Assembly (NCBI RefSeq): GCF_002234675.1 | Contig: NC_019879.2 | Coordinates: 19,226,855-19,290,854 of the forward strand | DNA: 64,000 nt | Origin: Oryzias latipes | Taxonomy: Eukaryota > Chordata > Actinopteri > Beloniformes > Adrianichthyidae | Direction of reading: 5' to 3' | Shown: positions 565 to 28,400 of the stretch, piece after piece | Position numbering within the stretch: the stretch's first letter is position 1 | Layout of the letters: every line of letters begins with the position of its first letter | Notes under the pieces: model-generated | What the model was told of the DNA's origin: nothing | The model's database searches: none | Seen by the model: the letters and a program-made list of their open reading frames with translations, nothing else | Translations under genes and position numbers: made by a program

Positions 565-3500
565 TCTGTAGAGGAGTTTCTCAGTGTTCATGTGTTTTGC
601 TGCCAACAGAGACAACTGGTACAACTCTCCGAAAGACAAGAAGCAGAGAGACTTCTGGATGGCCTCATCTGTTGGTTTCATGTTGTCAGAGCTTGTGGTG
701 TTGCAGTGAGGCATGTTTACCATCCAGGACAGGATCTGTTCCAAATGGCATTAGAAGATAATGAGGGATACACAAAAGTAGGTGCACTAAGAAAACTTCA
801 CAGAACTGGAGCCTTTTTTTTATAACCTTAGCAAATAGAGTCACAGGCGAAGGTAATCTGATGGACCCAGCAGATTTTATAAATCATGGCTTTAAAGTCT
901 CTTCCTGTTATTTTGCCCACTTTGAAAGTTATGCCAGTTTTAGTTTTCCAAGCAGCTCTACATTTCAAACTATGCAGTTAAGTTTTTCTGTCACTATAAT
1001 TTTGGCAAACTATGGGGGTGGCGCTGTATACGTTTATAAAACTTTGTGTCTTCCCAATCCCTATCAATCAAACTCTACTTGACTTTAATTGATAATCCTT
1101 ATATTTAATTAATCTAATGTGACGTGCGTGTGTACTGTATGCTTTACTCCAAAAAGACTATTTTTTGTTATGAGTGACAAGATGATTTATATCTGAAATA
1201 TGTTTGATGTTTTGAATTTTCGTTTAACCCAATATTTTTAATGCTTGAAATAAATCAATAAATCAAACCAAAACCAAACAAACCAAATTAAACCGCATAA
1301 TTGAAAATAAAGTTTCATAAGATGACAGATGAGAATATGTCTCCTTGAGTTGGGGACTTTTGCTCTGGTAAGAACTGCATAATCTTATCCTGCCTTTCTC
1401 ATTTAGTTTTAGGAAGTGAATAGTTTTTTGTTTTATTTTGTGAGACCTATCAATTGTCGGTAAAGTTTTTTTTTAAATCTATAACCCAGCAGTTTTTACT
1501 ATGCTACTCGTTGTAACATTGTGGTCCAGTGGTTCCCACTCTAGCACATTTATCACAAATATTCCAAGAGCAATTTTTCTTTAGCAGTTCCATTTAAGAT
1601 GTGCATCATAGCTCATGCACACATATATAGGTCACATGCTCTCTGTTTAAATTGACCATAAACATCTCCTGGCTTACCTCCAAGTTGTCATTTGGTAGTG
1701 TAGTGTTCATCAGCGGGTCGAGATCAGAAGGGTTTATAGCCAAGTGTTGCTGAACATCCTGAGCAAAGGCTGCTCTATTCCTCAGCATCCCTCCCACTGT
1801 CATCACTGCGGCAAAATATGAGAAACAATTAACAGTGTCCAATGTAAAGATTTTGCCAGTGTTAAGTTAAAATTGGCAGTCCAGAGGTCTGGTAAAGATG
1901 GGTGCCTGCATTTTCTGAGAATAGCATACTAAAAAAACTAAACTAACACATTTAACAAAATAATGGTTGAATAAAAATGGACCTAACAAAAGCTCACCTG
2001 GTAGGGTGAAGTTCATGTTGAGGCTGTCCAGGCTGGTGGTGTTAAAGCCCAAAGCTTCAGTCAACACAGAAGTCCTGTGTATAAAAGATATTAACACAAA
2101 CAAGTGAACTTTGACGAAGGCAAATGTTTCTTATTTGAATTTTAAAAAATGCCGAATGGTGTAGAGTAAACTGCTTCTATGAGAGCCCTTACAAGTTGTT
2201 AAAAACATATCACCAATGAAGATCAGGGAAATTGTGCCTTTTCAATACACAAAATAACCACATTCAACAATTGTAAGACAGATCGACATAATGTCGTACC
2301 AGTTTGCTTGGATTTTGTAGTTCTTGGGTTCTCCAATGACAGCTTGGAACAGGAGGTCAGACATTGAAGTGCTGTTCTTGGCCAGTACCTCCAGGCTGGG
2401 AAGGTACGTGTTGCAGAGCTGCCCAGGTTGTAAAGAAAGAGTGGACATGACCTGCTGCATGGACTGTGTGCTCTCCAGGGGGCACAGCTGGAAAACAAGT
2501 TTAGGTCTTAGAATCAAAATATAAATCAAGTTCCAATAACTTGAAAATGACAGCTGGGATTTTTCTACTTTGGAAAGAGTTAGAAATCATATTTACATGT
2601 GACTGCCAGTGAAATGTAGGAAAAACATTATAACAACAATACATGAAGATAAATCTTCAGTCATTTTTATTAAAAACAAATGAATCAACATTTTTAACTA
2701 CTTTCTTTTTCTTTTTTTTAAAAATGCATACACAACTTATTTCCAATATATCAATGTAAAACTAACATTTTGCACTATGCAGTGTGTATAGAAACAAATA
2801 AAAAAATAGTTTTCCAAAATATCAACTAATAAATTGCTGTCGAGACGGGATTTTTGAATACACAAATATCACATTTTAACCTTTTCCTTAAGCCAAACAC
2901 CCCCCCGTGTTAAAGGAGATGGCTAACAGAAACCCTAAATTTGAACGTGTCACCAATTACCTGAGATTTTAGTTGTTGTAGCTGCTGTGTGAACTCGGAA
3001 GATTTGGGGTGGCTCTGTAAAAGCTGAACAGTTGTTTGGACTGCCTGCTGCATACGGATCAGGGTATCTGTCATGGGTAGGTGAAAACAAAGGGGTTAGA
3101 CTGTTGAAAAATTAGGGTGAAAGAAAGATTATCTTAATGTCCAGAATCTCAAAGAGTTAGGTCTTCAAGGTGACAGAAAACATGACTTCCCAGTGGGCTT
3201 CATTACAGCTTACATCATTACAGGGCATTGTTGTCAGGCAGCACGCAGCAAATGATGTGCTGCTAGTGAAGCCCTGTGTGGGACTGATGGGGCCAGAAGG
3301 GCCAGCTGTAATGGATGCTGTCATGCATTAAAACACTTTTGACAAAGCCAAAGAAAAGCACCACCTCAGGCTGCAGAATGTGATGACAGAATATCTAATT
3401 AGCCCAAAATTAGCCAATGCTTATGTTTAATCTTAGGACCCTAAACACCTAGAGGCCTTTGCAATTACAACAGTTGCACTGTGTTGCTGTTTGTGTATGA

Positions 3501-25400: not shown

Positions 25401-28400
25401 CAGACACATCATATCTGTTCCTCACAAATGAACATAACAGGAGGGTTAACAATGTATTTATTTCAATTTATTTCTAATATAAGTCGCTGCGGAGTATAAG
25501 TCGCACCCCTTGCCAAACTATGAAAAAAAGTGCGACTTATAGTCCGGAAAATACGGTATTCACTTTGGAGATTCTGTTTCTACATGCTTTTCTCCCACAT
25601 GGCGTCTTTAATCAGCATTCATCTAACATTTTTCCTGGCTTCCCTAAAGTGTAAAAACCAGCGAACCATTTTCTGTTTAAACTGTAGTCAAAGCTCAGGC
25701 CTTTATAAATGCACATGTTTAAAAATAAGAACATTTTAGTCTAGTCAATTAAGAAACAAAAAAAAGTTAACAAATGTCAATTTTTTTGGTCATTTATACA
25801 CTAATGCAACACAAATGTTGCTGCAGTTCCAGCCAGATCTCAACACTGGGTTAATTCTTTTTTCATTTTCATAGATTATTTTTAATCAATCAAAATAAAC
25901 ATACAATTTTGACAAAACAAGTAGTAAAAACCTTACCAAAAATGCTCTCCATGGCTTTAACCAATGCTGCAGGGTCACTTAGGGAGTTATTTGGAATAGC
26001 AAAATTGAAAAAATCTCCTCCTTGAATCAGGGTTGCGAACGGTGAAGCTTTCGGCATGTCGACAGACCTGTAACATACATTTAAAAGGGTCAAATACCTC
26101 CAGCTCCAGAGCTTTTTCAGCAAAAAAGTCTATGTTGTATTCCGGACAAAGAGAAATATTTTCTGTGGCCCAAATAGCAAAGGACACCTGTGAATTTTGG
26201 AACATGACATCTCCTTTAGACAATGTTTCTCAATAAAATGGACAAAACGGGTCAAAAAGGTTATTTGTTGAAAAGGGAAGCAAGCAGCAACATTATTCGC
26301 CCTTCTTTTTAAAAAATAACTGTTACATATCTGACTGTTGCTGCCGAAGAGTCTGCAGCAGCCACAGCACTAATACACTTTTGTCAAATTTAGTTACATT
26401 GAATTTATGTTTATAAAGCTTTGAACAGAGAAACATCTTGTATAAAACACTTTCCATCTATTTCAAATCTTTCCTAAATTAAATCAAATTTACCTACAAA
26501 AAGAAGTCCTTCCTGGCTTATTTTTCAGATGAATTTCCCTTAAATTGTTGTTTTGTGTTTTGGTTTTATTTGGTAGAAAGGGAATAATGATAACCGGGCT
26601 GATGTTGTATGTTTATTTACCAAATTAAAATCTAGATGGGAGTAAAACACCAGCTAACTCTGCCTATAGTGCATAATATCTCAAGCAAACCAGTGCACTC
26701 TTTTGAGATTTGTATCATAAACATAACAAACAGGTTTTCATGACTAAAGGTTCTCATCGGTGCTGGGAATCATTGCAAAGAAGTGACGGGAGTGGAGTTA
26801 TAAAAGAAGCAAGAAAATGAAAGGAGAAGAAACAAAAGGAGGAATGTTGTCAATCTGTGATCTAAAAACAGCAAAAACACGTCAGTGTCTTATGAAAATA
26901 CACCTGACAAGAGACAACATCAAGCATATAATTGAATACATGAGGAGTTATCACATCAGAGCCATATCAGAGATGGCTCAGTGGGTAAGTCAATGGTGTT
27001 TGATTGGAGCTCACCGCTCCCCCCAGGGGATGGGTCAGAATGCGGAGAAGAATTTCCCCAATAAAGTATCAATTATTATCAATTATTATTATTATCAGAT
27101 TTACCGTTTGTCTCGGGATGACGTTGAGGTGCCAGAATCTGCCAGACGTGATGTGTTGTAACAGTGGCTGTCTGTGTTGCACATTAGGGTCTGGAGGAAA
27201 GGGAAGAAGCCTGCACTCGGTAGGTTCCTCGGTGACACGTAACCTAGGAGAAGGATTTTTTCTTTTATAGAAACATTCTTAATACCTTATTCTCTTTTTA
27301 CACTTAAGAAGAATATCTGGAAGGTTGATACACCTGTTGTATCAGTATTTTTGTTCTGGCTTTGAATCGTATCACCTTTTGTGATAAGAATCATCTCAGC
27401 TATTGCTTTAGTTGAGAACAAATAAAAGATGTCATGTGAGAGCCCGAAGATCAAGTTGCAACACTACAGCGAACGGGAACAAACATCAGTAGTGTTCATG
27501 CCCATAGCTATGTTTCACAGCTCTTAATAAACTGCAGCCCTCAGTCTCATTGAAAATCATCATCACATAACTTTTAAGCCCACAAAAGCTGCAAACTGTG
27601 GTGCTCGCATCTCTACAAACTTGCTTTTAAGTGTAACAAATGCGTACAAACTAGCTTATTAAACAAAAAGAAGGCTTCAAACTAGATTAGAAGCAGTGTA
27701 TGTATTAACACAATTTAAAGCCACAGCGCTGGGTAACAATTTATTCAGGAAATGATCTAGCTTACTACTTACTGTTTTTGTTTTTACCAATACGGGATGT
27801 TGAGCGCTTACTTTGAATTGTTGAAATAACTGTGCAAATCAAGCGTCACCCCAGCCACTGTTTTCTATTAAGTGTCTTTCTGTGTTTTTACAGTGATCAT
27901 GATTGGCGTCGGGCAGTGTCATGTTTCATGGTAACGCCACCGACCGGGTGGAAGAAGGTGGAGAAGAAGCTTGGTGGTGGTGGAAGAAGCTTCAGAAATG
28001 GTGGGCCCAATGGGGTGCTGGTATTTTCCAGGTGGAGGTATAACAAATACTTTAACCTCACTGAGATCAAAGGCAAGAATTTACATGGAGTGTACGACCA
28101 TAGGTGAAAAGATTTTATTGATATCCATAAAATAAGTACAGCGGTCTAAGATTTTCTGTTTGGTTTATGTATTTAGTTCGGTCTGTATATTTGGACTACA
28201 GAGATAAAGGTAATTCATTTTATTTAAATGTTTAAATTTGTTTTAGAAAAGATACTTACTTCATAATAGATATTGAAGGTTAGCAGTACAGTACATGTAT
28301 ATTTTCATCAGAAACATTTTTAAAATAGGGCTACAGTATTTTTTACAGTAATATAAATAGTTGCATTTCTAGAAACCAGTTATTTTTACTATTGGGTAAT

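Follow-up and report, generated by a model that had tools for sequence, protein, structure and literature searches.

An intron-phase cycle in the extracellular domain of Oryzias latipes abca12 suggests growth by repeated copying of one small exon block

The abca12 gene of Oryzias latipes is encoded on the minus strand of the window analysed here, a stretch of 64,000 nt (NC_019879.2, 19,226,855-19,290,854). Its chained exons form a single open frame of 3214 codons that reaches exon 47, and the extracellular domain continues beyond the window up to that exon. Exon ends were set with a phase-agnostic gene finder based on codon usage and generic splice matrices, the codon table of which was seeded at first with seven open stretches that had been selected by eye in the ORF list. 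At a penalty of 8, both ends were recovered for 35 of the 37 exons from 4 to 40, with seven extra small exons in between, and at a penalty of 9 for 33 of the 37, with four extra ones. Two boundaries were missed at penalty 8, where exon 4 starts and where exon 10 ends. The former, 27243, was taken from a spliced alignment with human ABCA12, and the latter was set at a GC donor at 22293 chosen for its agreement with the chain. The acceptors of exons 12 and 15 are weak, and both exons were missed at penalty 9.

Exons are classed by the phases at which they begin and end, namely H (1 to 2), A (0 to 2), B (2 to 1), C (1 to 0) and D (0 to 0). All coordinates are window positions on the minus strand and, unless another source is given, follow from the gene model. 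The first coding exon (TM1; 29909..29977), placed by gene model and spliced alignment, ends in phase 0. A 94-nt TM1 exon (29683..29776) runs from phase 0 to 1, and the paralogues have a 94-nt 0-to-1 exon at this place. Exon 4 (27105..27243) belongs to class H, is conserved and is common to ABCA1/4-type genes; it is found by the H profile with z 14.3, and 23 of 45 residues are identical to human ABCA12. It is followed by exon 5 (B; 25937..26067), exon 6 (C; 23676..23746) and exon 7 (D; 23028..23198), the last with two cysteines 23 apart. The next set consists of exons 8 (A; 22753..22946), 9 (B; 22528..22646), 10 (C; 22293..22399, with the uncertain end described above) and 11 (D; 21220..21366, three cysteines). 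Exons 12 (A; 19295..19461, the start being either 19461 or 19407), 13 (B; 19003..19136), 14 (C; 18364..18494) and 15 (D; 17844..18008, three cysteines) form another. Exons 16 (A; 17395..17603) and 17 (B; 16987..17120) are succeeded by exon 18 (16550..16664), which is off-cycle and runs from 1 to 2, and by giant exon 19 (13046..15640), a 2-to-2 exon of 2595 nt.

Exons 20 to 33 were all recovered phase-blind. The first seven are exons 20 (B; 12085..12197), 21 (C; 11849..11916), 22 (A; 11518..11666), 23 (B; 11261..11391), 24 (C; 10857..10999), 25 (D; 10051..10218) and 26 (A; 9700..9917). The second seven repeat this order as exons 27 (B; 8725..8837), 28 (C; 8431..8498), 29 (A; 8045..8193), 30 (B; 7802..7932), 31 (C; 7385..7527), 32 (D; 6647..6814) and 33 (A; 6258..6475), and both D exons carry two cysteines 25 apart. 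Giant exon 34 (4640..5584; 945 nt, 2 to 2) precedes exons 35 (B; 4354..4460) and 36 (C; 2961..3067). Exon 37 (2300..2487) is of class A by phase and has a D-like cysteine pair 23 apart. Exons 38 (B; 1998..2074), 39 (C; 1678..1805) and 40 (D; 565..735), with two cysteines 20 apart, complete the cyclic part. As had been pointed out, exon 7 has the same length as exon 40, 171 nt. Exons 41-47, outside the window, are extracellular and non-cyclic.

The phases at the ends of exons 4 to 40 of the chained model read 2100 2100 2100 21 22 10 2100 210 2100 22 10 2100, which reproduces exactly, in one open frame, the string reported in the first-pass annotation. There, the cycle was said to run through the whole extracellular domain; it in fact stops at exon 40, the following exons 41-47 reading 0 1 0 0 1 1 2. 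The cycle is also broken by exons 18, 19 and 34, and its initial 2 belongs to the 1-to-2 exon 4, while later cycles open with 0-to-2 exons. The element '2100' occurs 6 times in 37 introns, with a shuffle mean of 0.54, and none of 200,000 shuffles reached 6. When the tandem copy 27-33 is left out, it occurs 5 times in 30, a count reached by 1 of 200,000 shuffles. The phase pattern thus repeats beyond chance. Topical literature searches found no report of a repeated exon block in abca12.

Cysteines and exon lengths vary with phase class. All six D exons of abca12 contain at least two cysteines. Among the 33 classed exons, 14 of the 18 cysteines fall in D exons, which make up 330 of 1545 residues (p 4e-7); without the tandem copy the count is 12 of 16 (p 1e-5). 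Exon length also depends on class (Kruskal p 2e-5; 3e-4 without the tandem copy). A cysteine pattern had been noted for exons 11, 15, 25 and 32, where it is present, and it extends to exons 7, 37 and 40. In the paralogues, the D exon has exactly two cysteines in five of five cases, 25-29 apart; the B and E exons have none, and the C exon has one in one of five.

Exons 20-26 and 27-33 are, judged from sequence, an old seven-exon tandem duplication. Lengths are equal in all seven pairs, 130 of 330 residues are identical, and the local score is 638 (z 107). A search of the genome with exons 20-26 gave 12 matches, every one within abca12. Similarity among same-class exons, one half of the refutation test put forward with the initial proposal, was not found apart from these pairs: in pairwise local alignment of all regular exons, same-class exons outside the seven tandem pairs are no closer than exons of different class (mean z 0.20 for 125 pairs vs 0.23 for 429, p 0.42). 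At this level, significant similarity does not appear to extend to all repeats of the putative tandem-block domain. HMMs and average-score profiles were further built from the paralogue exons H, B, C, D, E, F and G. Profile H finds exon 4 and profile G finds exon 43, and profiles B, C, D and E did not single out the matching abca12 classes or find anything reliable, exons 39-41 included. The D profile gave a mean z of 0.97 on six D exons vs 0.40 on 27 others (p 0.13). This profile test has little power, because it fails even for exons 39-41, which are counterparts by position of ABCA1-type exons. A combined E-F profile did not find five A exons (mean z -0.39), and exons E-F are thus not supported as a source of the A exons.

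The giant exons had been attributed to intron loss or separate growth. No internal repeats were detected in exon 19, the best window score being 47 vs a mean shuffled maximum of 47.2 (30 shuffles), and an origin by intron loss is therefore not supported for it. The result agrees better with a symmetric 2-to-2 exon that grew separately, and exons 19 and 34 look like separate exons of this kind. Exon 19 resembles human ABCA13 (blastp E 6.6e-4, z 6.4, 0 of 20 shuffles). The structure of exon 34 predicted from its single sequence had a mean pLDDT of 38.6 and was discarded.

The 2,1,0,0 set of the abca12 cycle occurs once, at the same place, in sister genes. Of six paralogous loci studied in this genome, five have exactly one set; at the sixth, on C18, only the framework exons were recovered. 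The paralogue set leaves out other ABCA loci matched by the family search, e.g., on C8, C9 and C19. The five loci read 1 | 2 1 0 0 | 0 1 0 0 0 2. Upstream of the set they have exons of 94 and 142 nt vs 94 and 139 nt in abca12, and downstream an exon of 140 nt, as in abca12. The published exon ends of human ABCA4 (c.160, 302, 442, 570, 768, 858, 1099, 1239, 1356 and 1554) give the phases 1 2 1 0 0 0 1 0 0 0, the same single set. On this comparison of same-genome paralogues and published human positions, the four-exon ancestor therefore seems to be still visible in sister genes.

Taken together, these observations suggest that the outer domain of abca12 grew by copying one small exon block again and again. 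Specifically, the N-terminal part of the domain, exons 5-40, probably arose through successive in-frame tandem duplications, the unit being an exon block still present once in ABCA1/4-type genes. This retains the core of the earlier proposal of duplication from a four-exon ancestor, namely growth by block duplication, given the single set in five paralogues and human ABCA4 and the cysteines kept in the 0-to-0 exon. It departs from that proposal in being restricted to exons 4-40 rather than the whole domain, in taking B-C-D after a unique 1-to-2 exon as the ancestral set, and in that the only duplication provable by sequence is one of seven exons (20-26 and 27-33). The ancestral block would have consisted of B, C and D, the last with its cysteine pair. 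B-C-D enters in phase 2 and leaves in phase 0 and is therefore not repeatable in frame alone, so a 0-to-2 linker exon A would have been needed before in-frame copying. With this linker, A-B-C-D would be a symmetric block, of which unequal crossing-over within introns could add or remove copies while the frame stayed intact. The result would be about ten modules, bounded by exon 4 on one side and exons 41-43 on the other, both of them shared flanks. Three of the modules would have no D exon of their own, a pair of giant exons, symmetric with 2-to-2 phases, would stand among the modules, and one seven-exon block would have been duplicated once more. We infer that the older modules are homologous, in what order the events took place and how exon A originated. 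The repeats may extend a helical structure that is stapled by disulphides and sits above the lipid transporter.

A variant compatible with this explanation, possible if rather doubtful, is that the unit of the second half was a two-module block, B-C-A then B-C-D-A, comprising seven exons, at times after a giant 2-to-2 exon, and copied two or three times, and that the four-exon appearance of exons 4-15 is separate and older. Exons 20-26, 27-33 and 35-41 all follow the order B C A B C D with A or E in seventh place, and such a block comes after each giant exon. The giants show suggestive similarity (score 81, z 4.7, 0 of 300 shuffles), but this weakens with other matrices, being reached by 2 of 200 shuffles with BLOSUM45 and by 50 of 200 with PAM250. 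Exons 35-41, moreover, lack in-register similarity to exons 20-26 and 27-33 (mean z 0.19 over 14 pairs); among 13 shifts the highest mean z, 1.54 (8 pairs), is reached at -3. As a whole block, exons 20-26 score z 5.8 against 35-40 with BLOSUM62, and against 35-41 z 2.9 with BLOSUM45 and -0.9 with PAM250.

It is unlikely that the seven-exon block of exons 20-33 is the sole true duplication, the rest being one inherited cycle to which introns were added independently along a lengthy helical region. Clear sequence likeness is limited to that pair, and one cycle is inherited, as the paralogues indicate. Exons 20-40, all found phase-blind, contain '2100' 3 times in 21 (251 of 200,000 shuffles), and without exons 27-33 twice in 14, matched by 2,382 of 200,000 shuffles, so this stretch alone is not strong. 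However, exons 4-40 minus one copy keep the rare count given above, and cysteines and lengths track phase class. That the pattern is an artefact of splice sites picked to fit the cycle is highly improbable: the exon 10 donor was so picked, the acceptors of exons 12 and 15 are weak, the training seeds were chosen by eye, and taking exons 4, 10, 12 and 15 out of the string and joining what remains leaves '2100' 3 times in 33 (1,390 of 200,000 shuffles), but 35 of 37 exons were recovered without phase preference, as were all of exons 20-40, whose count of 2-to-1 and 1-to-0 steps is matched by 4 of 200,000 shuffles.

A 2020 study describes the N-terminal region of ABCA13 as without homology to known human proteins or well-conserved domains (PMC7948424), and a 2026 review terms the extracellular domains of ABCA12 and ABCA13 abnormally large (PMC13161189). 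If the domain does consist of about ten copies of a block that is single in ABCA1 and ABCA4, it acquires a unit of repetition, a probable map of its disulphides and, where similarity in sequence has disappeared, a history that can be tested. It would be a clear case in which gene structure preserves evidence of homology for longer than sequence does, and would also illustrate the need for a frame-symmetric linker exon before a domain can expand.

Human ABCA12 aligns with the abca12 extracellular domain at its beginning and at its end. In the spliced alignment, the published positions c.1782, c.2332, c.3179 and c.3294 coincide with the ends of fish exons 39, 42, 47 and 48, and c.69 also coincides with a fish exon end. 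Human introns 9, 11, 14 and 17 have phases 2, 0, 0 and 1, like fish introns 34, 36, 39 and 42, the match of introns 9 and 11 resting on exon counting and not on aligned sequence. The human splice-variant positions are thus compatible with the fish phase table. Human exons 10-11 span 226 nt vs 214 nt for fish exons 35-36. Between the H and D exons, human ABCA12 has about 11 exons, as estimated from exon numbers, whereas the fish gene has 35. One source gives 2595 aa as the ABCA12 reference length, labelled mouse there (PMC4458048), and another gives 4758 aa for the marine medaka abca12 protein and reports ABCA13 as absent from teleosts (PMC4607974). Exons 40-47 are identical to ABCA12 at 155 of 448 residues and to ABCA13 at 29.9% over 438. 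It is conceivable, though somewhat less probable than the reverse, that the giant modular domain predates the ABCA12/ABCA13 split. The ancestor would have had B-C-D modules, about ten in number, together with symmetric giant exons, all kept by fish abca12 and mammalian ABCA13, and mammalian ABCA12 would have lost about two dozen of its exons. What made the block copyable would have been the appearance of a single 0-to-2 linker, which may have been a chimaera of the exons on either side of the one ancestral set.

A PDB search with exons 4-11 gave no credible match, and a Pfam scan of five pieces gave none above the cut-off. Exons 42-47 match solved ABCA4 (E 1.5e-29), ABCA1 (about 2e-24) and ABCA7 (6.4e-23), by which the membrane-proximal part of the abca12 domain is evidently homologous to that of ABCA1/4/7. 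Compared through the five same-genome paralogues, ECD1 of ABCA1, ABCA4 and ABCA7 shares with abca12 the same flanking exons and phases, one B-C-D set and a two-cysteine D exon. Unlike abca12, the ABCA1/4/7-type genes have one set instead of about ten, and the five aligned paralogues contain neither the 0-to-2 linker nor a giant exon.

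The abca12 gene lies on the minus strand, runs from about position 29,980 down past window position 1 and extends outside the window by at least 29 kb. Exon 4 and exons 40 to 48 match an unverified human ABCA12 sequence, and exons 42 to 47 match the solved ABCA4, ABCA1 and ABCA7. A giant protein is expected here, as Abca12 of marine medaka was published at 4,758 amino acids (PMC4607974). One intron holds a long TATC tetranucleotide array (20079–20259).

The chained exon model exactly reproduced the phase string reported for exons 4 to 40 in the first-pass annotation, i.e. the bases left over at successive exon ends, where "2100" denotes one four-exon cycle. 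A gene finder written for this analysis scores codon usage and splice consensus and favours no intron phase. At one penalty it found both boundaries of 35 of the 37 exons, and at a stricter one those of 33. "2100" occurs six times in the 37 exons, a count equalled by none of 200,000 shuffles. Without exons 27 to 33, it occurs five times in 30 exons, and one of 200,000 shuffles was as good. Exons 20 to 40 alone, all found phase-blind, contain it three times (reached by 251 of 200,000 shuffles), or twice without exons 27 to 33 (2,382 of 200,000). Phase 2 is followed by 1 in ten exons and 1 by 0 in nine, the stepwise exceptions being exons 4 and 18, which run 1 to 2, and exons 19 and 34, which run 2 to 2. 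The cycle had been claimed for the whole extracellular domain; this holds for exons 4 to 40 but not for exons 41 to 47, which read 0 1 0 0 1 1 2. The cycle therefore does not reach the portion of the domain common to ABCA1, ABCA4 and ABCA7. The exon after exon 47 resembles, by eye, a transmembrane segment.

A cysteine signature, which is independent of phase, accompanies the cycle. The 33 regular exons were sorted by start-to-end phase into classes, including A (0 to 2), B (2 to 1), C (1 to 0) and D (0 to 0). Making up 330 of 1545 residues, the six D exons carry 14 of the 18 cysteines (p 4e-7, or 1e-5 when exons 27 to 33 are left out), and each has at least two. A D-like cysteine pair also occurs in exon 37, which runs 0 to 2 and directly follows a C exon; this may reflect the fusion of a D exon with it. 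No such pair is present in exons 22 and 29, which are similarly placed.

Sequence similarity among same-class exons, as looked for after the first-pass annotation, was found only in part. Exons 20 to 26 match exons 27 to 33 in all seven pairs, which agree in length and share 39% of their residues. Only two of six intron pairs (20/27 and 25/32) exceed ten shuffles. As most introns no longer match and exon identity is 39%, this seven-exon duplication is old. Outside these tandem pairs, exon-against-exon comparison found same-class exons no more similar than other exons, and block-against-block comparisons gave scattered marginal values that varied with the matrix. Profiles of paralogue exons fail at the D, C and E positions (E following D), including exons 39 to 41, which by position must be counterparts of paralogue exons. 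Absent similarity is thus weak evidence either way.

Six further ABCA loci of the same genome were located with a human ABCA1 query. Spliced alignment gave a full phase table in five (C1, C10, C4, C17 and C20) and conserved end exons only in the sixth, C18. The C4 and C17 alignments include a spurious exon (3 or 0 nt), which leaves the phases unaffected. All five read 1, then a single 2 1 0 0, then 0 1 0 0 0 2, and their D counterpart has exactly two cysteines, 25–29 residues apart, in 5/5. The exons of 94 and 142 nt ahead of the set correspond to abca12 exons of 94 and 139 nt, and the 140-nt exon after it to one of 140 nt. In human ABCA4, exon ends taken from variant names in PMC7544654 show the same single set.

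Taken by itself, B-C-D opens in phase 2 and closes in phase 0, which makes in-frame repetition impossible. A-B-C-D runs 0 to 0 and B-C-D-A 2 to 2, and the birth of exon A was probably the step that opened the way to block copying. A proposed crossover of the exon after D (phase 0 start) with exon 4 (phase 2 end) would yield a 0-to-2 exon at once; the one sequence test of this origin covered only the E side and was negative.

The giant exons 19 (13046–15640, 2595 nt) and 34 (4640–5584, 945 nt) are both symmetric, 2 to 2, and could thus be dispensed with or inserted without frame damage. They are suggestively alike along some 240 residues of exon 34, less so under other matrices. An unverified human ABCA13 sequence resembles exon 19; should this hold with verified sequence, the giant domain would predate the ABCA12/ABCA13 split.

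Elsewhere in the window, alpha-tubulin-like open stretches, named by eye, lie on the plus strand at 50191–51219 and 54305–55198, about 4 kb apart, and on the minus strand at 41098–42096. Exons like those of a protein O-fucosyltransferase (POFUT2-like), identified solely by eye, lie at about 37286–37779 (minus strand). A 118-bp unit is repeated three times head-to-tail at 38678–39031, the later copies showing 93% and 81% identity with the first. A 60-nt inverted repeat (12349–12408 and 35570–35629, 23 kb apart, 75% complementary) is possibly a dispersed element.

Tandem exon-block duplication is a well-known mechanism; what seems new is its use in this gene, together with the finding of a single-copy ancestor among sister genes. 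No account of the pattern was found in the mainly open-access literature covered on ABCA12/ABCA13 gene structure and extracellular domains. Splice variants in PMC6503032 and PMC10048568 fix seven human ABCA12 exon ends; human phases beyond these are a prediction. Five of the seven (c.69, c.1782, c.2332, c.3179 and c.3294) coincide with fish exon ends in the alignment. The remaining ends, c.1061 at intron 9 (phase 2) and c.1287 at intron 11 (phase 0), can be positioned solely from an exon count that starts at intron 14 and goes backwards. So counted, they meet fish introns 34 and 36, also of phases 2 and 0, with 226 nt between them in human ABCA12 and 214 nt in the fish gene.
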